From positions 4,677,502 through 4,741,501 of the forward strand of contig NZ_KI632509.1 of assembly GCF_000504245.1 (NCBI RefSeq): a stretch of 64,000 nucleotides of DNA, written 5' to 3'. The translations under genes were made by a program, and so were the position numbers. This DNA comes from Haloechinothrix halophila YIM 93223 (GTDB lineage: Bacteria; Actinomycetota; Actinomycetes; Mycobacteriales; Pseudonocardiaceae). Shown here piece after piece: positions 3,491-63,947 of the stretch (position 1 is its first letter; every line of letters begins with the position of its first letter). The notes under the pieces are model-generated. The model searched no databases. It was not told the DNA's origin and saw only the letters and a program-made list of their open reading frames with translations.

Positions 3491-3562
3491 GTGTGTTGTG
3501 ACACACACCTTGCCGTGATGTTCACACGAAGTCAAGTGTTGTTAACAAAGAATCTTGTTAAG
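3491..3562 (-). promoter_or_regulatory. Candidate operator/promoter region of the ABC importer operon
   Basis: The gap between the phosphatase stop and the binding-protein start holds several symmetric elements. These are GTGTGT-TGTG-ACACAC at 3491-3506, the perfect palindrome TTGTTAACAA at 3539-3548, and another TGTTAA at 3556-3561. The palindrome preceded by AAGTG resembles the AGTGTT/TTAACA element upstream of the sugar kinase at 5903-5916. A common regulator of the two operons is inferred; no regulator gene is visible here. Confidence 0.45.
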
Positions 3563-4295
3563 ATCTCGACGCGCTGTGCTTCCCCGGCCCCAGCGCGGGG
3601 TTGAACGCCACCAGCCGCCATGCCCCGTGGGTGTCGTCTTGTGCCAGCACAGCCCCAGAGACGTTGTGCACCACGGGAAACTCGCGGCGGTAGTCCGCCG
3701 GGTCGATGCCGGTGAGCGCGCAGGTGACCAGCCGCAACACCGTGCTATGGCAGACCGCCAGCACGACGCCGCCGGGATGTCGTGCGGCGATATCGGACAC
3801 CGCCGCGGTGCCGCGCGCGATGGCCACGCGGGGATCTTCGCCGCCGGGCAGCGGGTTGGCCACCGGGTCATGCTCGAACGCCGCGCGGAGCTCTGGCCAG
3901 CGACGCGCCATCTCCCGCGAGGTCAGCCCTTCCGCCTCACCGAAGTCGAGTTCGATCAACCGGTCGTCGACATGTACGGGAAGGCCGGCCGCACGGGCGG
4001 CGGGCTCAGCCGTGCGCGCGGCTCTGACCAGCGGAGAGCTGTAGACGGCGTCGAGTCCTGCCTGACCCGCCCACGCCGCGAGCTGATCCGCCTGCGCCTC
4101 GCCCGCTTCGGTGAGGCCGACGTCAGTACGGCCGCAATAGCGGTTTCCATCGTGGAACGGCGTCTCACCATGGCGGAGGAGATAAAGCGTCCTCGCCTCC
4201 CATGATTCGGACCTGCGAGCAGTCCTCGAGTCCGATGATTCGGACCTGCGAGCAGTCCTCGAGTCCGATGATTCGGACCTGCGAGCAGTCCTCAT
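3558..4295 (-). CDS. Histidine phosphatase (phosphoglycerate-mutase superfamily) with repeat-derived N-terminus
   Basis: Small phosphatase of the histidine phosphatase superfamily, 245 residues from the ATG at 4293-4295, which overlaps the kinase stop (ATGA). The catalytic domain starts at about residue 35 with LYLLRHGETPFHDGNRYCG (RHG nucleophile His). It continues through LTEAGEAQADQLAAW and SPLVRAARTAE, with the second catalytic His in VLAVCHSTVLRLVTC. Before it lies a non-homologous leader of three 11-residue repeats (RTARRSESSDS), encoded by three 33-bp DNA units. Substrate is unknown. Co-transcription with a sugar kinase suggests a sugar-phosphate or phosphoglycerate-type ester. The leader is basic and is not a signal peptide. 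Confidence 0.88.
   Translation of the reverse strand: MRTARRSESSDSRTARRSESSDSRTARRSESWEARTLYLLRHGETPFHDGNRYCGRTDVGLTEAGEAQADQLAAWAGQAGLDAVYSSPLVRAARTAEPAARAAGLPVHVDDRLIELDFGEAEGLTSREMARRWPELRAAFEHDPVANPLPGGEDPRVAIARGTAAVSDIAARHPGGVVLAVCHSTVLRLVTCALTGIDPADYRREFPVVHNVSGAVLAQDDTHGAWRLVAFNPALGPGKHSASRS
4204..4295 (-). repeat. Three tandem 33-bp repeats carrying the start codon of the phosphatase
   Basis: Units begin at 4204, 4237 and 4270 with exact 33-bp spacing on the plus strand (GATTCGGACCTGCGAGCAGT, then CCTCGAGTCC). Read on the minus strand each unit encodes RTARRSES plus three linker residues. The unit nearest the gene start includes the ATG. The same unit recurs at 5796-5854 and, with one mismatch, at 62193-62218. 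GGAC...GTCC arms within each unit allow a small hairpin just inside the mRNA coding region. Confidence 0.9.
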
Positions 4296-5854
4296 GCCGC
4301 CCCCGCCAGGGCCGTGCCCGCCAACGCGGCGTCGATCCACCCCAGCTCGGCCAGCCCGCGCACCAGATCGGCGTAGGCGGCGTCGAAGCGTTCGTGCGCC
4401 CCTGGCCGGGGCTCGACGACTCGCACCGGGCCGAGCATCCGTTCGGCCATCGCTGTCAACTGCTCACCCGGATCGCCACCCGTGCCAGCGGCGGCGAGCA
4501 CCGCCATGCCCACCGCGCCCTCGGCCACCTGTGGCACTGCCACCGGCCTGCCGAGGATGTCCGCCTGGAGCTGGGTCCAGTACGGGCTGCGGGTGGCGCC
4601 GCCGCTAATGGTGACCGGGCCGTCGACGGTCGCGCCGAGACCACGCAGGTGATCGAGACAGAGGCGTTCCACGAACGCGACACCCTGCAGCACGGCAGCG
4701 AACCGATCCGTCGGGTCACGGTCGTTACCCCAGCTCACGCCGGTCGCGTCGGACCGGAGGAACGGGAACCGCTCGCCGACGCCCGCCAGCGGGTACGTCA
4801 CCGACGCGGCGGGCTCACGGTTGGCGGCATGGCGTTCCAGCGCGGCGAAGTCGGCGCCGTCGAACTCCTGGCTCAGCACGCCAGCGCCCGCGCTCGATGC
4901 CCCGCCGGGCCACCAGCGACCGTCCGGGGCACGGTGCGAGTAGAGCGCACCGGACGGATCAGCCAGCAGCGTGTCGGAGACACCTTTGAGCACGGTCGTC
5001 GTGCCCACCACGAAGCTCCACTGCCCAGGACGCAGCACGCCGGAGGCGATCTGCGCGGCGCAGCCGTCGGTCATGCCCGCGACCACCGGCACACCGACCG
5101 CCAGGCCAGTCTGCTCCGCCGCGGCAGGCGACACCTCGCCCAGCACCGTGCCCGGCCGCACCAGCGGCGGCAGCAACCGAGGGTCGAGGCCAAGTCGGGC
5201 CAGGTCAGCGGTGGGCCAGCCGCCTTCGACGAGGTCGGCGCCAGACTTGAGCGCGTGGCTGGTGTCGGTGGGCGCAGGCCTACCGATCAGCCGCGACGTG
5301 ACGACGTCGGCCTGGTGCGCCAACCGCACGCCAGGGCCGGGGTCACCGCCACGGAGCAACCACAACGCCTTGGGCAACGCCCACGAGCGTTGCGGAGTGA
5401 GACCAGCGGCGCGCCACGCGGGAGCGGGGTCGTCGGCCACCCGGCGAGCCTGCTCGACGGCGCGACCGTCGTCGTACATCAGCCCGGGTGTGACGGGCTG
5501 CGCCGGGTCGTCCGGGGTCTCGCGCACCAGGGCGATCGTGCCGGACGTCGCGCAGCAGGCGAGCGCCGCGACCTCGACGTCTCCCGCCGCGGCGAGCGCG
5601 TGGCGGGTGGTGGCGGCGACGGCCTGCCACCAGTGCTCCGGATCCTGCTCGTGCCTGCCGTCAGGCCAGCGAGTACTGGTCAGCCGCTCAGCGGCGGAGC
5701 CGAGCACCGCGCCATCCGCGTCGACCAGCACCGCGCGCACGCTCTGGGTTCCGAGGTCGACACCGAGCCATGCCTGCCGGGTCCTCGGGTCCAACGATTC
5801 GGACCTGCGAGCAGTCCTCGCGTCCAACGATTCGGACCTGCGAGCAGTCCTCAT
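4292..5854 (-). CDS. FGGY-family sugar kinase (xylulokinase-like)
   Basis: Cytoplasmic kinase that phosphorylates a ketose or polyol, 520 residues, typical FGGY length. The first domain starts at about residue 26 with LGVDLGTQSVRAVLVDADG, the ATP-binding actin-like phosphate loop. GMTDGCAAQIASG contains the likely catalytic Asp. FVVGTTTVLK and the C-terminal ISGGATRSPYWTQLQADIL are FGGY_C hallmarks. The start is placed at ATG 5852-5854, preceded by GAAGGGTGG, rather than at the in-frame TTG 18 nt upstream. The first about 22 residues (two RTARRSES repeats) come from the 33-bp repeat and have no family counterpart. The gene is coupled to the phosphatase by ATGA. Divergent transketolase and transaldolase suggest that the product enters the pentose-phosphate pathway. 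A xylulose substrate is likely but not proven. Confidence 0.88.
   Translation of the reverse strand: MRTARRSESLDARTARRSESLDPRTRQAWLGVDLGTQSVRAVLVDADGAVLGSAAERLTSTRWPDGRHEQDPEHWWQAVAATTRHALAAAGDVEVAALACCATSGTIALVRETPDDPAQPVTPGLMYDDGRAVEQARRVADDPAPAWRAAGLTPQRSWALPKALWLLRGGDPGPGVRLAHQADVVTSRLIGRPAPTDTSHALKSGADLVEGGWPTADLARLGLDPRLLPPLVRPGTVLGEVSPAAAEQTGLAVGVPVVAGMTDGCAAQIASGVLRPGQWSFVVGTTTVLKGVSDTLLADPSGALYSHRAPDGRWWPGGASSAGAGVLSQEFDGADFAALERHAANREPAASVTYPLAGVGERFPFLRSDATGVSWGNDRDPTDRFAAVLQGVAFVERLCLDHLRGLGATVDGPVTISGGATRSPYWTQLQADILGRPVAVPQVAEGAVGMAVLAAAGTGGDPGEQLTAMAERMLGPVRVVEPRPGAHERFDAAYADLVRGLAELGWIDAALAGTALAGAA
5796..5854 (-). repeat. Two tandem 33-bp repeats carrying the start codon of the sugar kinase
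   Basis: Units begin at 5796 and 5829, the same 33-bp unit as at 4204-4295 with small changes in the linker (TCCAAC in place of TCCGAT). The upstream end coincides with the kinase ATG at 5852-5854. The repeat therefore supplies the first codons of this gene as well. Confidence 0.9.
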
Positions 5855-5890
5855 GCGGCCACCCTTCACCAAGTCTCTTCACAAGCTAGC

Positions 5891-5916
5891 GTGTTATGTG
5901 TATGTTAATTTAACAC
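5891..5916. promoter_or_regulatory. AT-rich divergent promoter with palindromic operator candidate
   Basis: Between the kinase (minus) and the small Cys-rich gene (plus) lies an AT-rich stretch unlike its surroundings. It has GTGTTA at 5891-5896 mirrored by TAACAC at 5911-5916. Inside is the near-perfect palindrome TGTTAATTTAACA at 5903-5915. The position suits control of both divergent operons. A similar TGTTAA-type element precedes the ABC importer operon. Confidence 0.5.
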
Positions 5917-5977
5917 TTTCTGTTGATATGAGGAAGTCGCGACAAGCTCAGACGTAACGCCCGTGGAGGGCCGCACC

Positions 5978-6276
5978 ATGACCGTCGACAACGAGACGCT
6001 GCATCCCGGACAGCTAGCCATCCTGCGCGCCGTCGCCTCCGGCCGCGCCGAGATCACCTGCAGCTGCGAACCCGACCTCTACGTCGACGGTGTGCCGTGC
6101 TGCAACCAGTGGGTCGTGCACGCGTTGGTGCGCTCCGGACACGTGCGGGCCGCGCGGCCCGGCCGGATCGGGCAGCGGGTCGCCGCGACCCTGACCGCAA
6201 GCGGCCGGAGTGCCCTCGGTGCTCTTGGTGCCGTCGCTCCCCGCCACTCCCCCGTCCCCGCAGCGAAGGAGATCGC

Positions 6277-32556: not shown

Positions 32557-34035
32557 ATGAGAACTTCCACATCCCCGTCGGTCGCGATCGTCGGCACCGG
32601 CTTCGGTGGCATCGGCATGGCGCTGGAGCTCAAGCGCGCCGGGTTCGACGACATCGTCATCCTGGAGAAGGGTGACGACATCGGCGGCGTGTGGCGCGAG
32701 AACACCTACCCCGGCGCCGCCTGCGACATCCCGTCGCCGTACTACTCGTTCTCCACCGATCCGAACCCGGCCTGGTCGTCGCGGTTCTCGCCGCAGGCAG
32801 AGATCAAGGACTACATCCGTCGCGTCGTCGACGCCAACGACCTGCGTCGCCACATCCGTTTCGGTGTCGAGGTCACCGCAGCGACCTTCGACGAAGCCAG
32901 CACGCAGTGGCGGCTGAGCACCGACACCGGCGAGGAGTACGTGGCGGACGTCTTCGTGCCGGCCACCGGGCAGTTGTCCCGGCCCGCGCTGCCGACCATC
33001 GAGGGCATCGACACCTTCAGCGGACCGTCGTTTCACTCCGCCGAGTGGGATCATTCGGTCGACCTGCGCGGCAAGCGCGTCGCGGTGATCGGCACCGGGG
33101 CGAGCGCGGTGCAGTTCGTGCCCGCGATCCAGCCGGACGTCGAGCACATGACGGTGTTCCAACGTTCCGCCCCCTGGGTGTTGCCGCGTCCCGAGGTGGT
33201 CTACAAGCAGTGGCATCACACGATGTTCCGCACGCTGCCGTTCACACGGCTGGCCGAGCGGTTCGGATTCTGGCTGCTGTGCGAGGCACTCGCGCTGGCG
33301 CTGGTCGACGTCCCGAAGATGCGCCCGCTGTTCGCCGCGATCGCCCGGTTCCACCTGCACAGACAGGTGCCGGACAAGCGGCTGCGCGCCAAGCTGACCC
33401 CGGACTACGAGCCCGGCTGCAAGCGCGGGCTGTTTTCCGGTGACTACTACCCCGCGTTGGGCCAACCGAACGTCCACGTGGAGACGACCGGCATCGAACG
33501 CATCGAGCCCTCCGGGGTGCGCACCACCGACGGCACACTGCACCAGGCCGACGTGATCATCTACGGCACCGGCTTCAAGACGTCGGAGTTTCTCGGGCCG
33601 ATGGCGGTGCACGGCCTCGACGGCCGCAAGCTCGCCGACGAATGGAGCGAGGGCGCGCACGCCTACCTCGGCATGACTGTGCCCGGTTTCCCCAACATGT
33701 TCCTGATGTACGGTCCGAACACCAACCTCGGCGTCGGGTCGATCATCTACATGCTGGAGTGTCAGGCCAGCTACATCGGCAAGGCGGTGCGGCTGCTCGC
33801 GCGCAACGGCGCTCGTGCGATGGACGTCAAAGCGGACGTCGCCCGGCGGTTCGACGAACAGCTGCAGAGCAGGCTGGACCGATCGGTGTGGACGTTGTGC
33901 TCCAGCTGGTATCGCAACGAACACGGCCGCATCACCAACAACTGGCCGGGCACGGTCAGTTCGTATCGGCTGGCCACCCGCACCCTTGACCCGGACGACT
34001 ATCGGCTACTCGACCGCAAGGAGGCGGCAGCGTGA
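32557..34035 (+). CDS. Flavin-containing monooxygenase (Baeyer-Villiger type)
   Basis: A 492-residue FAD/NADPH enzyme. The FAD Rossmann motif is VAIVGTGFGGIGMALELKRA. The BVMO-like fingerprint FSGPSFHSAEWD lies at about residue 157. The NADPH motif KRVAVIGTGASAVQFVPAIQ follows, and VIIYGTGFKTSEFLGPMAVH is the second flavin contact. Enzymes of this type insert oxygen into ketones or oxidise S/N atoms. It heads a three-gene operon and overlaps the GMC oxidoreductase by 4 nt. Control by the divergent AraC regulator is likely. Confidence 0.93.
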   Translation: MRTSTSPSVAIVGTGFGGIGMALELKRAGFDDIVILEKGDDIGGVWRENTYPGAACDIPSPYYSFSTDPNPAWSSRFSPQAEIKDYIRRVVDANDLRRHIRFGVEVTAATFDEASTQWRLSTDTGEEYVADVFVPATGQLSRPALPTIEGIDTFSGPSFHSAEWDHSVDLRGKRVAVIGTGASAVQFVPAIQPDVEHMTVFQRSAPWVLPRPEVVYKQWHHTMFRTLPFTRLAERFGFWLLCEALALALVDVPKMRPLFAAIARFHLHRQVPDKRLRAKLTPDYEPGCKRGLFSGDYYPALGQPNVHVETTGIERIEPSGVRTTDGTLHQADVIIYGTGFKTSEFLGPMAVHGLDGRKLADEWSEGAHAYLGMTVPGFPNMFLMYGPNTNLGVGSIIYMLECQASYIGKAVRLLARNGARAMDVKADVARRFDEQLQSRLDRSVWTLCSSWYRNEHGRITNNWPGTVSSYRLATRTLDPDDYRLLDRKEAAA

Positions 34036-35771
34036 CTGACTTCGACTACGACGTCCTTGTCATCGGCTCGGGCTTCGGCGGCAGCGTGTCCGCGCTACGG
34101 CTGAGCGAGAAGGGTTACCGGGTGGGGGTGTTCGAGTCGGGGCGGCGCTGGCGGCCGGAGGACTACCCGAAGTCGAACTGGAACCTGCGCAAGTCGATCT
34201 GGGCGCCGAAGCTCGGGCTGACCGGAACGCAACGGATCAGCTGGCTCGGCAAGTGCGCGCTGTTCAGCGCGTCCGGCGTGGGTGGTGGCTCGCTGATCTA
34301 CGGCAACACGCTGTACGAGCCACTGGACAAGTTCTACTCCGACCCGGCGTGGGCGCACATCACCGACTGGCGCGCCGAGCTCGCACCGTACTACGACCAG
34401 GCGAAACGGATGCTCGGGGTCACCACCAACCCACGCATCACCCCGGCGGACGAGGTGCTGCGGGAGGTCGCCGAAGAGCTGGGCGTCGCGGACACATTCC
34501 ACCCCACGCAGGTCGGCGTGTTCTTCGGCGAGGGTGATGACACCGAAGGCAAGACCGTGCCCGACCCGTACTTCGGCGGCGCGGGACCAGAGCGCACCGG
34601 CTGTGTGCACTGCGCGCGGTGCTTCACCGGCTGTCCGCACAACGCGAAGAACACCACCACGACGAACTACCTCTACCTCGCCGAGCAGGCGGGCGCGCGG
34701 GTGCACGAGATGGCCACGGTGACCGACGTCCGGCCGCTGGACGGCGGAGGCTACGAGGTCACCGCGGTGCGATCCGGCAGCGTGCTCCGCAAGCAGCGTC
34801 GCCGCTACACCGCGGAGCACGTCGTGTTCTCGGCAGCGGCACTGGGCACCCAGAAGCTGTTGCACCAGCTCAAGGACACCGGTCGGCTGCCGAGGCTGTC
34901 GGATCGGCTGGGCGAGCTGACCCGCACCAACTCCGAGGCGATCCTGGTGTCGTCCAGCCGCACCCGACGCGACTTCGCGCAGGGCATCGCGATCACGTCG
35001 TCGATCCATCCGGAGGCCGACACCCACATAGAGGTGTGCCACTACGGCACCGGACAGAACTCGCTGTTCCCGCTCTCCGCGCCGATGGTTGACGGCGGGA
35101 AGCTGCGGGCGCTGCGATTCGTGCTGTCGGTGATCGCGCATCCGCTGCGGTTCCTGCGCTCGCTCAATGTGCGCGGCGCGTCAGATCGGTCGGTGATCCT
35201 GCTGGTCATGCAGTCACTGGACAACTCGCTGACGTCGTTCCGCAAGCGCGGGCTTTTCGGGCACCGGCTGTCGACACGGCAGGGCACCGGCGAGCCGAAC
35301 CCGACGTGGATTCCGATCGGACACGAGGCGAACCGGCGCTACTCCGACAAGATCAACGGCGACGCGCTCGGGCTCTACATGGACGTCGTCAACGTGCCGT
35401 CGACGGCGCATTACATCGGCGGCTGCCCGATCGGTGACTCGCCGGAGACCGGCGTGGTCGATCCGTACCAGCGGCTCTACGGCTACCAGGGGCTGCATGT
35501 GGTGGACGGCTCTGCGATCTCGGCGAACCTGGGCGTGAATCCGTCCCTGACGATCACCGCGCAAGCCGAGCGGGCGCTGGCGTTCTGGCCGAACAAGGGC
35601 GAGGCCGACCCCCGCCCGCCGCTGGGTGAGGCATACCGTCGGATCGACCCGGTGCCGCCGGCGCGGCCGACCGTGCCAGAGTCGGCGCCGGGCGCGCTGC
35701 GGCTACCGCTCACCCCGGTGAAGGCGCGCAAGGGCCGTGCGGCGAAGGCAACCAAGACGGAGCGAGCATGA
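34032..35771 (+). CDS. GMC oxidoreductase, cholesterol-oxidase-like
   Basis: A 579-residue FAD alcohol oxidase or dehydrogenase. The N-terminal nucleotide-binding motif is YDVLVIGSGFGGSVSALRLS; the flavin attachment region is ASGVGGGSLIYGNTLYEPLD. A Cys-rich loop TGCVHCARCFTGCPHNAKNT is typical of the ChoD-like actinobacterial branch. The C-terminal active-site segment contains IGGCPIGDSPETGVVDPYQR and VVDGSAISANLGVNPSLTIT. There is no signal peptide, and the Pro/Lys-rich tail after about residue 540 is non-conserved. It probably oxidises the alcohol whose ketone is the substrate of the upstream monooxygenase (inference). Confidence 0.92.
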   Translation: MTDFDYDVLVIGSGFGGSVSALRLSEKGYRVGVFESGRRWRPEDYPKSNWNLRKSIWAPKLGLTGTQRISWLGKCALFSASGVGGGSLIYGNTLYEPLDKFYSDPAWAHITDWRAELAPYYDQAKRMLGVTTNPRITPADEVLREVAEELGVADTFHPTQVGVFFGEGDDTEGKTVPDPYFGGAGPERTGCVHCARCFTGCPHNAKNTTTTNYLYLAEQAGARVHEMATVTDVRPLDGGGYEVTAVRSGSVLRKQRRRYTAEHVVFSAAALGTQKLLHQLKDTGRLPRLSDRLGELTRTNSEAILVSSSRTRRDFAQGIAITSSIHPEADTHIEVCHYGTGQNSLFPLSAPMVDGGKLRALRFVLSVIAHPLRFLRSLNVRGASDRSVILLVMQSLDNSLTSFRKRGLFGHRLSTRQGTGEPNPTWIPIGHEANRRYSDKINGDALGLYMDVVNVPSTAHYIGGCPIGDSPETGVVDPYQRLYGYQGLHVVDGSAISANLGVNPSLTITAQAERALAFWPNKGEADPRPPLGEAYRRIDPVPPARPTVPESAPGALRLPLTPVKARKGRAAKATKTERA

Positions 35772-61172: not shown

Positions 61173-61216
61173 TACCGCGCCAGTGCGCCTACCGCGCCAG
61201 TGCGCCTACCGCGCCA
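61173..61216. repeat. 17-bp tandem direct repeat at the SMP-30-like stop
   Basis: TACCGCGCCAGTGCGCC occurs at 61173-61189 and 61190-61206, and a third partial copy overlaps the stop of the SMP-30-like gene. It is a short local duplication. Because the partial copy contains the stop codon, the duplication may have arisen from the gene end. Confidence 0.7.
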
Positions 61217-62126
61217 TCGTGACGACGGCGTTCTCCAGCAGGCTGCCGAAGTACAGCTGGGCATCGCGTTCCCGCACCCCGGTCAGCATGTGAAAGCCGT
61301 CGATCTCGCCTTCGTAGGAATGCACGATGTCGCCCCTGTCATCGACCCCGATAACCCGCATCGTCTTGCTCGGCGCGGGCTGCAGCGACTCTGGCAGCTT
61401 GGTGACCGCGGAGCGGACCAGGCCCGGTAGCTTCTGCACCACGCCGAGGGCCGGGTTGCGCGGCGCGGGAATCGCGATCCAGATCAAACCATCGCTACCG
61501 GTTGAGGAGTTGTCCGGGTAGCCACTGAGATCGCCGACGAACAAATCGGCGGTACCTGCCCGCTGGCCCGTCAGCCAGAACCGGCGGACCTGGCACGCGC
61601 CCGACTCGGCCACCGTCACGAACGACTCGTCGGCGGCGAGCGCGACGCCGTTGGCGAAGTGCAGCCCGGTCAACAGCTCGTCGACCGTGCCGTCGGGATT
61701 GCGCCGCAGCAGTCGCCCGGTGCGAGTCTGCTCGATCAGGTCGGTGCGCCACTCCGGGATCGGGTAGCGGCGGGAGGAGTCGCTGAAGTAGATCGTGCCG
61801 TCGCTGGCCACCGCCGCGTTGTTGCAGGCGAGTATGGGTGCGTCGAACACGGTGTCCGCCAGCACCCGCACCGCACCTGAGGACAGCGACACGGCGAGCA
61901 ACCCGGCGTCCGATGCGCACACCACCAGGTCGTCGTCGCCATAGAACTCCAGCCCAAGGGGCCGACCGGGGCAGGTCGCGATGGTCTCGATGGTGCTGCC
62001 GTCATTGTCGACGCGAAGGACCCGTCCGTCGGTGAGCCCGGTGTAGATCCGACCCTGCTTGTCGACGAGGACGTCCTCGGTGCCCTCGCCGTTGACCGGG
62101 ATGACGGTGGCGGACTGGAAGCTCAT
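61206..62126 (-). CDS. SMP-30/strictosidine-synthase-like six-bladed beta-propeller
   Basis: A 306-residue lactonase-like propeller. GTEDVLVDKQGRIYTGLTDG is the first blade; RPLGLEFYGDDDLVVCASDA, NNAAVASDGTIYFSDSSRRY, HFANGVALAADESFVTVAES and GSDGLIWIAIPAPRNPALG follow, with the Asn/Asp positions that bind Ca2+ in SMP-30 proteins. The ATG at 62124-62126 has GAGGAGG upstream. Plausible activity is lactone hydrolysis or esterase. Its start overlaps (ATGA) the stop of a 31-codon leader ORF made from the RTARRSES repeat. Confidence 0.9.
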   Translation of the reverse strand: MSFQSATVIPVNGEGTEDVLVDKQGRIYTGLTDGRVLRVDNDGSTIETIATCPGRPLGLEFYGDDDLVVCASDAGLLAVSLSSGAVRVLADTVFDAPILACNNAAVASDGTIYFSDSSRRYPIPEWRTDLIEQTRTGRLLRRNPDGTVDELLTGLHFANGVALAADESFVTVAESGACQVRRFWLTGQRAGTADLFVGDLSGYPDNSSTGSDGLIWIAIPAPRNPALGVVQKLPGLVRSAVTKLPESLQPAPSKTMRVIGVDDRGDIVHSYEGEIDGFHMLTGVRERDAQLYFGSLLENAVVTMAR

Positions 62127-62218
62127 ACCGCCTCCTCTTCGCGCGCGGCACGCCGCGCCGTTGACTTGGCGTCGGCGAGCATGGTGCCCGATGATTCGGA
62201 CCTGCAAGCAGTCCTCAT
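62123..62218 (-). CDS. Possible 31-residue leader peptide coupled to the SMP-30-like gene
   Basis: ATG 62216-62218 is preceded by AGGAG at 5 nt spacing, immediately after the stop of the histidine phosphatase gene. It encodes MRTACRSESSGTMLADAKST and AARREEEAV-like residues (31 in all). Its TGA overlaps the ATG of the SMP-30-like gene (ATGA), the geometry of translational coupling. The first nine residues come from the same start-codon repeat that begins the sugar kinase and the phosphatase at 4-6 kb. No homologue is known to me; expression is inferred only from the ribosome site and the overlap. Confidence 0.5.
   Translation of the reverse strand: MRTACRSESSGTMLADAKSTARRAAREEEAV
62193..62218 (-). 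repeat. Single copy of the start-codon repeat (26 bp)
   Basis: It matches the repeat units at 4204-4295 and 5796-5854 over 26 bp including the ATG, with one mismatch (GCAAGCAGT for GCGAGCAGT on the plus strand). Here only one unit is present, and it starts a short leader ORF rather than a full protein. Confidence 0.85.
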
Positions 62219-62226
62219 ACGTGCTC

Positions 62227-62868
62227 CTAGCGGTAGGTGAGCAAGCTGCGGTGCTCGGCCTCGAAGTGCGCGTGCTCGTTGAACGCGAGCAGTGTGAGGC
62301 CCGACCGACCGGTCACCAGTTTGGTGATTCCGGCGTTGCATGTCACGCGGTGCAGCGCGGTGAACCGCCCTGGCTGATCACCGATCGCCCGTGCGGCGAG
62401 CGCGCCGATCACCCCGCCCGAGGTGAACACCAGCGCGTTGCCGCCCTTGGGCAGCCCCGCGGCCAGCTCGTCGAACGCCGCGTTCACCCGGTCAGCGAAC
62501 GCGGTCCACGGCTCGGTGCAGGTACTACCATCAGCCGCCGTGATCCAGGCGAGCAACGCCTCGTCAAGCGCGGCCTGGAACCCGCGCGGGTCCACCGGCT
62601 CCGGCAGCTCGGCCCCATGACCGCGCAGGACGTCGATGAAGTCGTACTCGTTCCAGCGCTCGTCCGCCGCGGCGTCGAACCCGGCAGCCGACGCGGTGTC
62701 GCGCTGCCGCGTCATCGTGCCGCAGCGGACCTCGGTGAACTCGACCCCACGTCTGCGCAGTTCGTCTCCGGCGACCTTGGACTGCTCGGCGCCGACGTCG
62801 GACAACTTGTCGTAGTCAGCCGAGCCGAACGACGCCTGCCCGTGCCGGACCAGATAAATGGCACCCAT
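62227..62868 (-). CDS. Histidine phosphatase family protein
   Basis: A 213-residue phosphatase of the same superfamily as the enzyme at 3558-4295 but of a different branch. IYLVRHGQASFGSADYDKLS carries the RHG nucleophile; TRQRDTASAAGFDAA and VFTSGGVIGALAARAIGD replace the usual SxxxR and second His (here a Gly/Ser stretch), so the distal His is missing or displaced. The ATG at 62866-62868 overlaps the stop of the kinase-like gene (TGATG). Role unknown; pairing with an APH-like kinase and an SMP-30-like protein is seen in actinobacterial lipid or steroid loci. Confidence 0.87.
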   Translation of the reverse strand: MGAIYLVRHGQASFGSADYDKLSDVGAEQSKVAGDELRRRGVEFTEVRCGTMTRQRDTASAAGFDAAADERWNEYDFIDVLRGHGAELPEPVDPRGFQAALDEALLAWITAADGSTCTEPWTAFADRVNAAFDELAAGLPKGGNALVFTSGGVIGALAARAIGDQPGRFTALHRVTCNAGITKLVTGRSGLTLLAFNEHAHFEAEHRSLLTYR

Positions 62869-63947
62869 CAGCCACCGGCCTTCGCGATGATTTCCTTGCA
62901 GCGCCACTCCAAGTAGCCGACGAACATCCAGTAGTCGGCGTAGCGCGTGTTGTGGGTGCCGCCGTCGTGGTAGCGCCGGTACAGCTGCTGGATGATCACC
63001 GCGAGCCGGAACAGCCCGTAGACCTCGTAGAACGTCCAGTCGTCCACCGCGAGGCCGGTCTTGGCGAGGTAGTAGTTCACCACCTCGTCCCTGGTGAGCA
63101 TGCCGGGCAGGTGAGTCGGCTGCCGCCTGCTCTGCGTGAAGACGTCGTCGTCATCGGCGTGCACCCAGTACGCCATGGTCGCGCCCAGTTCCATCATCGG
63201 GTCGCCCAGCGTTGACATCTCCCAGTCCAGGATGCCGACGACGTTCAGTGTCTTCGCCGCGTCCGGTGGCGTGAGAACGATGTTGTCGAACCGGAAGTCG
63301 TTGTGGATCAGGCAGGTGGCGACGTCGTCAGGCTGGTTGGCCGCCAGCCACGCCATCACCTCGGTGTAGGCGGGGACGTTCTCGGTGCGGGCCTTGCGGT
63401 ACCGGTCGGACCAGCCTTCGATCTGCCTGCGCACGTAGCCAGCGCCCTTGCCGAGGTCGGACAGCCCCGCCGCCTCGACGTCGACCTGATGCAGCTCGAC
63501 CAGCTTGTCGATGACGTCTTTGCACAGCTCGCGCACCGCGTCCGGGCCGAGGTCGAGGCCTTCCGGCAGGTCGCGGCGCAAGATGATGCCCTTCAGGCGT
63601 TCCATGACGTAGAACTCGGCGCCGATGACCGACTCGTCGTCACAGAACGCCACCATCTCCGGTACGTAAGGGAACACCGGCTTGAGTCCGGATTGGACCC
63701 GGTACTCGCGGGACATGTCGTGCGCGGAAGCAGCCTTGTGCCCGCGCGGTGGCTTGCGCAGGATCAGGTCACGGTCCGGATAGGACAGTTCGTACGTCAG
63801 GTTGGACGCACCGCCGGGAAACTGCCGCACGGTCGGCGGGGTGTCGCCAAGGCCATCGACCCGCGCCGACAGCCACTCGTGCACGGCGGCGGCGTCGAAG
63901 GCGTCCTCTTCCCTGACCTCGCCCGCGGTATCGACGAGTTCGCTCAT
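62868..63947 (-). CDS. Phosphotransferase family protein (APH/ACAD10-like kinase)
   Basis: A 359-residue kinase-fold protein. The N-terminal lobe has RQFPGGASNLTYELSYPDRD and LILRKPPRGHKAASAHDMSR (Lys for ATP). The catalytic loop is TCLIHNDFRFDNIVLTPPDA (HxDxxxxN), and VVGILDWEMSTLGDPMMELG carries the Mg-binding DWE. This branch often acts with acyl-CoA dehydrogenases, phosphorylating 4-hydroxyacyl-CoA. It overlaps both neighbours (ATGA with the gene upstream, TGATG with the phosphatase), so it lies in a coupled operon that continues beyond the right edge. Confidence 0.92.
   Translation of the reverse strand: MSELVDTAGEVREEDAFDAAAVHEWLSARVDGLGDTPPTVRQFPGGASNLTYELSYPDRDLILRKPPRGHKAASAHDMSREYRVQSGLKPVFPYVPEMVAFCDDESVIGAEFYVMERLKGIILRRDLPEGLDLGPDAVRELCKDVIDKLVELHQVDVEAAGLSDLGKGAGYVRRQIEGWSDRYRKARTENVPAYTEVMAWLAANQPDDVATCLIHNDFRFDNIVLTPPDAAKTLNVVGILDWEMSTLGDPMMELGATMAYWVHADDDDVFTQSRRQPTHLPGMLTRDEVVNYYLAKTGLAVDDWTFYEVYGLFRLAVIIQQLYRRYHDGGTHNTRYADYWMFVGYLEWRCKEIIAKAGG

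Follow-up and report, generated by a model that had tools for sequence, protein, structure and literature searches.

The insertion target of mycobacterial interspersed repetitive units (MIRUs) is worded as a DTGA stop/start overlap. Rickettsia palindromic elements are palindromic repeats that are inserted in frame into coding genes. The subject here is a 33-bp repeat of Haloechinothrix halophila YIM 93223, present in a 64,000-nucleotide stretch of its genome (positions 4,677,502 to 4,741,501; the window). It very probably represents a mobile-element family whose members are very short, lack a transposase gene and insert at NTGA, mainly at ATGA/GTGA stop/start overlaps. By description, the Rickettsia palindromic elements are set apart from it, as the element here is mostly at the start of genes, at NTGA, and has a form with a separate mini open reading frame (mini-ORF). 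The element works like a MIRU and adds a short form that fuses in frame; it is not called a member of the MIRUs by sequence, because the architecture matches and the sequence does not.

PMC12548453, in passages that refer to Supply et al. (1997), describes MIRUs as apparently mobile, inserted at start codons and carrying an open reading frame (ORF) coupled at −4 nt. In passages of PMC4213456, the MIRUs in the senX3-regX3 gap measure 77 and 53 bp and are there only in Mycobacterium leprae and the M. tuberculosis complex. Thirty Mycobacterium loci for this gap (L221–L250; 27 placed, three not) include 12 with units of 32, 41, 53 and 59 nt, all with unit lengths of 2 mod 3 and mini-ORFs such as MTRAYDDAERSDEEEWRR. 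We take these 12 to be MIRUs by their place and the 53-nt unit. That 12 Mycobacterium genomes have MIRU-type units does not agree with the host range given in those passages. Model R1, set against the 12 loci, gave a best E value of 0.88, i.e. no sequence homology was detected. Tandem arrays are found in both systems, but the element here has a covarying hairpin, and its hosts are mainly Pseudonocardiaceae; in Mycobacterium it is mostly at one locus.

All window copies are on the minus strand. The 24-mer units lie at 4204-4227, 4237-4260 and 4270-4293 (33-bp period), at 5796-5819 and 5829-5852 and, with one mismatch, at 62193-62216; there are six matches to the unit compared with 0.00 in 100 shuffles. 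These positions confirm an earlier note, made from the sequence alone, that the unit is found three times at the start of a phosphatase, twice at that of a kinase and again at a third locus, and that each locus opens with the ATG of the repeat (4295, 5854 and 62218). The features of the first two loci are as follows.

4195-4295, minus strand: short-form array of three 33-bp units (99 bp inserted), in frame with the phosphatase, which begins MRTARRSESSDSRTARRSESSDSRTARRSESWEA ahead of its domain; the 99 bp are missing at locus L113 of Dino_bin49
4292-4295, minus strand: ATGA, the FGGY kinase stop overlapping the phosphatase start; insertion target
3558-4295, minus strand: histidine phosphatase (branch 1, by Pfam), N-terminus built by the repeat
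5787-5854, minus strand: short-form array of two units, in frame with the FGGY kinase; a two-unit array is at the same place in Dino_bin49
4292-5854, minus strand: FGGY-family carbohydrate kinase (by Pfam)

The phosphatase ATG shares the ATGA at 4295-4292 with the TGA of the kinase, and the position of the array is therefore explained. The repeats are outside both domains, because His_Phos_1 starts at phosphatase residue 37 and FGGY_N at kinase residue 29 (Pfam). The proposal in the earlier note that the repeat provides a protein leader holds for these two proteins and fails for the third copy, which opens a separate mini-ORF of 31 codons. In the 60 nt past its last 24-mer, the phosphatase has no in-frame ATG, GTG or TTG.

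Beyond the window, the single 5.55-Mb contig of the same genome has 70 units at ≤3 mismatches, and a reversed-pattern control has none. Clusters of units were scored with gene calls from a codon model trained on 24 long window ORFs and applied to every cluster; 123 were scored and eight more at locus ends were skipped. The 5′ junction is ATGA in 87 clusters, GTGA in 25, CTGA in nine and another sequence in two. NTGA is therefore present in 121 of 123, with N being A or G in 112, C in nine and never T. The stop codon of the upstream gene is exactly the junction TGA in 75 of the 123 clusters, as against 55 of 1199 VTGA sites in the window, the window being the only background used. The target is NTGA, chiefly a stop/start overlap of the type used for translational coupling, and here the resemblance to MIRUs is evident. 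Set out relative to starts, as the earlier note had envisaged, the copies show a junction ATG or GTG in 112 of 123 clusters, and in 30 of 36 in the organism's own genome. On the downstream side, 35 of the 123 clusters are in frame with the next gene and 54 end in a stop with a 4-nt overlap with the following start; the downstream gene is thus fused or coupled in 89, and 34 clusters show neither arrangement.

Copies at CTGA, where there is no overlapping start codon, are found at L147 (minus strand, 1473), L151 (minus strand, 1513), L159 and L171 (own genome). At L147 the spacing within the array is 34 nt, and the gene calls place the flanking genes on the opposite strand.

Insertion is shown when filled and empty sites are compared, with NTGA at both ends of the inserted DNA. 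The comparison of orthologues, another proposal of the earlier note, revealed empty sites for the phosphatase array, the 62-kb copy and one Amycolatopsis junction. At the phosphatase site of Dino_bin49 the array is absent, the junction reads GCATGACCACCCTC and the protein would begin MTTLYLLRHGE. At two further sites the difference is a single insertion of 33 bp (L147 and L091 compared with L126, and L151 compared with L110), and in L091 the insertion is flanked on both sides by ATGAG. The window differs from G003 at the 62-kb site by 92 extra bases, located between two copies of GTATGAG; because this sequence is at both ends, the edge of the element can be placed only to within 7 bp. The features at this site, together with two window sites that are empty, are given below.

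62127-62218, minus strand: long-form element, 92 bp inserted; absent in the three genus mates G001, G002 and G003, and in G059 (flanks more diverged)
62123-62218, minus strand: mini-ORF of 31 codons, MRTACRSESSGTMLADAKSTARRAAREEEAV; its TGA overlaps the next ATG (62126) by 4 nt
62198-62214, minus strand: first hairpin of the element, 6 bp with a bulged G and a CTTG loop; covariation over 47 distinct units
61206-62126, minus strand: downstream gene, strictosidine synthase/SMP-30-like (by Pfam), overlapping the mini-ORF stop
62227-62907, minus strand: upstream gene (His_Phos_1, by Pfam), with a TAG stop 8 nt ahead of the mini-ORF
34010-34060, plus strand: empty window site; two-unit array in Dino_bin57 (L115)
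35720-35770, plus strand: empty window site; long form in Dino_bin57 (L115), flank alignment less exact

The Amycolatopsis junction was searched in 19 genomes, two of which have no orthologous site and were left out. Of the 17 orthologous genomes, four are filled, 11 are empty and two carry, at this ATGA, a mini-ORF element that is unrelated. The remaining filled/empty pairs are less exact, with differences of 27–108 bp. The 17 pairs with zero units on one side include a chance match (L083), an antisense degenerate case (L095) and one site entered twice (W, L166), and the L059/L058 pair, with flanks of 76–79%, may represent paralogues. Orthologous arrays also differ in unit number, in 28 pairwise comparisons of which several are at one site. 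Common descent reduces the independence of copies.

Two forms of the element are found. The short form consists of n × 33 bp, a length of 0 mod 3, and the reading frame is kept; this in-frame fusion is not a MIRU property. In the 60 nt past the last 24-mer there is no in-frame ATG in 19 of 36 fusions and neither ATG nor GTG in 10 of 36, the phosphatase included. The start provided by the repeat is therefore likely to be the one used in these 10, if the gene is translated. The suggestion of the earlier note that a mobile repeat inserts at, or supplies, translation starts is supported by the enrichment at junctions, the empty sites and these 10 fusions. Unit spacing is 33 in 26 of 26 fused intervals and in 25 of 35 elsewhere, but part of this difference follows from how ‘fused’ was defined, and it is given no weight here.

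The long form has an additional 3′ part with a second palindrome, a Shine–Dalgarno sequence and a new RTGA, and its consensus is ATGAGGACTGCTTGCAGGTCC...GCGCGGCTTGCCGCG...AGGAGGCCGCATGA (alignment A1, 40 sequences, 14 of 54 long forms being left out). The 54 were obtained from 57 palindrome matches, after three that are not long forms of this element had been discarded. Counted from the last unit, the mini-ORF has 29–35 codons. It ends in an in-frame TGA in all 54 and this TGA is within ATGA or GTGA in 52; coupling of a mini-ORF by overlap, as in MIRUs, is thus confined to the long form, whereas the short form fuses. Length, measured without use of the frame, was obtained for 57 long forms and is 2 mod 3 in every one (86, 89, 92, 95, 98 or 104), a MIRU-like length that the 33-bp short form does not have. 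The modal length is 92 (40 of 57; 17 differ), although some rows are orthologues of one insertion, and seven candidates without a Shine–Dalgarno plus RTGA end, at least L074 and L153 of which are true long forms, were left unmeasured. By inspection, the ends of the 40-sequence alignment are not inverted copies of each other, so that the terminal inverted repeats of miniature inverted-repeat transposable elements (MITEs) are not seen.

The earlier note had recognized a GGAC/GTCC hairpin in the unit. The hairpin exists but is longer, with six pairs and one bulged G (24-mer pairs 3-19, 4-18, 5-17, 6-16, 7-14 and 8-13). Among 47 distinct 24-mers (one of 48 was removed as a chance match), pairing is kept in 96.5% of cells, compared with ≤52% in slid controls. 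Both sides have changed at five of the six pairs, and 11 cells show double changes compared with 1.3 in shuffled sets (0/500). These compensations change the encoded residues, e.g. RT to ST along with S to C, and therefore it is the nucleic-acid structure, not the peptide, that seems to be kept. The covariation could come from selection on RNA, from recognition as single-stranded DNA or from palindrome-templated repair. As RNA, a two-unit array folds better than its shuffles (z −2.21; 4 of 200 shuffles as good).

Within the genus, four genomes searched at ≤2 mismatches have 63, 22, 27 and 42 units; the same threshold gave none in any of 37 relatives sampled besides these. When 84,980 species genomes were scanned with a pattern of 20 bases, one of them Y, 92 stretches matched. 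The carriers are four ‘Actinophytocola’ metagenome-assembled genomes (MAGs; Dino_bin13, 49, 55 and 57), Amycolatopsis species, Mycolicibacterium/Mycobacterium, one MAG labelled only Actinomycetes, and Prauserella halophila, whose match is inside an ORF and may be due to chance. A long-form profile matches, at E≤0.001, 38 of 297 Pseudonocardiaceae genomes, spread over 12 of 46 genera, weaker matches being counted by score alone. In a Mycobacterium sample, 39 of 297 genomes match, two of them in two separate places. In both searches 13 candidates were scored per genome, and per-genome counts are lower bounds. Searches at E≤0.01 gave no match among 72,556 plasmid and 50,697 phage records, and window positions 4100-6000 have no Rfam 15 match at E≤1.

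Twenty of the matching Mycobacterium loci were read: 15 represent one junction and the other five do not have a good core. The flanking genes at L121 are thymidylate synthase and dihydrofolate reductase by Pfam, and the other loci are placed by resemblance. This Mycobacterium junction is seen in L054, L071, L075, L089, L119, L121, L125, L130 and 15 of L201–L220. Hairpin units are present there in one to four or more copies of 26–33 nt. The units are often chained mini-ORFs of nine codons in several species, and some stems are compensated (GGCC...GGCC).

A mechanism may be proposed from these properties. The short form keeps the upstream stop, gives a new start beside the Shine–Dalgarno sequence of the host and, for each unit, lengthens the downstream protein by 11 residues. 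With the long form come a mini-ORF, a Shine–Dalgarno sequence of its own and a new ATGA or GTGA, and translation may run from the upstream gene through the mini-ORF to the downstream gene via 4-nt overlaps. Preserved translational coupling might make insertion into an operon nearly harmless. The hairpin, as single-stranded DNA or as RNA, may be the recognition structure for a candidate trans-acting mobiliser, and arrays would later lengthen by slippage or unequal exchange.

Several observations weigh against this picture of a mobile element targeted to stop/start overlaps. No mobiliser has been found, and a REP-associated tyrosine transposase (RAYT, a Y1 transposase) as the resident mobiliser is ruled out in the organism's own genome, which has no Y1_Tnp match. 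Forty-eight of the 123 clusters lack an upstream TGA at −1 (15 unclear, 12 with an opposite-strand gene and 21 with another stop on the same strand). The 62-kb window copy is one of the clusters without it: its upstream gene stops at a TAG 8 nt before the mini-ORF, so that stop and start do not overlap there. A number of copies are located at gene ends without a start. The gene calls rest on a self-made codon model with 24 training ORFs, and the background rate of VTGA stops comes from the window alone. Flank matching beyond NTGA is weak: P is 0.012, 0.005 and 0.040 at −1, −2 and −4, respectively, with −3, −5, −6 and −7 not significant. The second hairpin is almost invariant and provides no covariation support, and the RNA folds of two whole long forms do not surpass those of their shuffles (z −0.28 and −0.64).

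Other explanations account for part of these data. Palindrome-templated repair can yield compensation without selection. This counts against the proposal that the unit is a regulatory RNA hairpin at start codons, selected for expression control and spread mainly through its usefulness, as does the patchy presence at orthologous sites. Such a role is unlikely, even though it would account for the covariation of the stem and for the unit at the thymidylate synthase–dihydrofolate reductase junction of several Mycobacterium species, with some stems compensated. Protein-level selection on a shared N-terminal tag for targeting, stability or interaction, an idea the earlier note had also entertained, would explain why MRTA(R/C)RSES opens many unrelated proteins and why the fusions keep frame. 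It is highly improbable when the compensatory changes hold the stem and alter the peptide, the long form makes a separate, free peptide, units at CTGA are not at starts and sites are lineage-specific. That the arrays are only local minisatellites, slippage arrays that appeared at each start through chance or gene conversion with transposition playing no part, is scarcely probable at all: units are indeed gained or lost in place, as in the orthologous arrays described above, but the same sequence is at tens of unrelated loci, and relatives have empty sites for single-unit and long forms as well.

There is also some similarity to repetitive extragenic palindromic (REP) sequences moved by a RAYT, of which the GTAG and CGTC families are short, dispersed, imperfect hairpins that also occur in tandem. 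The unit here is likewise a short, imperfect, bulged hairpin that follows an unpaired TGAG, is dispersed and forms tandem clusters. A REP-type origin is nevertheless very unlikely. The tag is TGAG and neither the GTAG nor the CGTC of the passages in PMC3733652, and the copies are at starts and in reading frames, not extragenic. Y1_Tnp (PF01797) is absent from the one-contig genome, which is 98.9% complete, and from six of six tested Amycolatopsis carriers and the Prauserella genome. It is present in two of four genus members and in four of six Mycolicibacterium/Mycobacterium carriers at E≤0.001, three of these being over the cut-off. Y1 transposase genes without stops are seen at L174 (G002) and L175 (G001), i.e. 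in two of the four genus members, and none is seen in the genome of the window.

A second mini-ORF family, F2 (GGGTGYCCCGCARGACACAGGAGG; Amycolatopsis loci L255, L256 and L289–L348), is unrelated in sequence to the first element and occupies the same site in two Amycolatopsis genomes. F2 is found in 11 of 19 Amycolatopsis genomes, of which one has 41 units and another 20. At ≤3 mismatches it is also present in 10 of the 41 relatives sampled, and it is absent from the H. halophila genome. The mini-ORF runs from NTGA to the next RTG in 12 of 19 distinct loci read, e.g. MIDNREAPIMRADRVRVPRRTQEAA of 74 nt. F2 is not uniform in phase: a length of 2 mod 3 is seen in 13 of 15 single copies, but seven of 16 within-array spacings are 75 nt. 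The flanks match over TGA and about 11 nt before it, including the Shine–Dalgarno sequence, with a mean run of 7.3 compared with 1.6 in shuffles for 27 testable copies; of 59 clusters, 31 in which the search rule used did not locate a 5′ NTGA and one with a short flank were left out. Positions −7 and −10 are too uniform for an excess, and −12 shows none. F2 thus appears to copy a ribosome-binding and start module upon insertion. This is the main reason for a more general, tentative reading to which we give slightly less than an even chance: high-GC actinobacteria may have a class of ‘coupling elements’ comprising unrelated families (the first element, F2 and MIRU) that converged on, or share, one machinery, and this machinery would insert at the ribosome-binding-site/stop-start module and copy it, so that mini-ORF and host gene both keep working starts.

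The earlier note missed three points: that stop/start overlaps are the target, that a long form exists and that MIRUs are a known parallel. A literature text search did not find the peptide strings of the element, and among the matches listed (titles and abstract starts, with subscription journals mostly outside coverage) there is no such element outside mycobacteria. MIRUs are usually regarded as a mycobacterial peculiarity, and we know of no mobiliser for them. A family in harmless actinomycetes that has dozens of copies, two phase classes and a hairpin that covaries, and for which empty sites exist, makes the question of the mobiliser testable. For annotation there is a warning, as many starts in these genomes are made by the repeat. 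The element illustrates how operons can take up mobile DNA with translation left intact, and how new N-termini and small proteins can arise.

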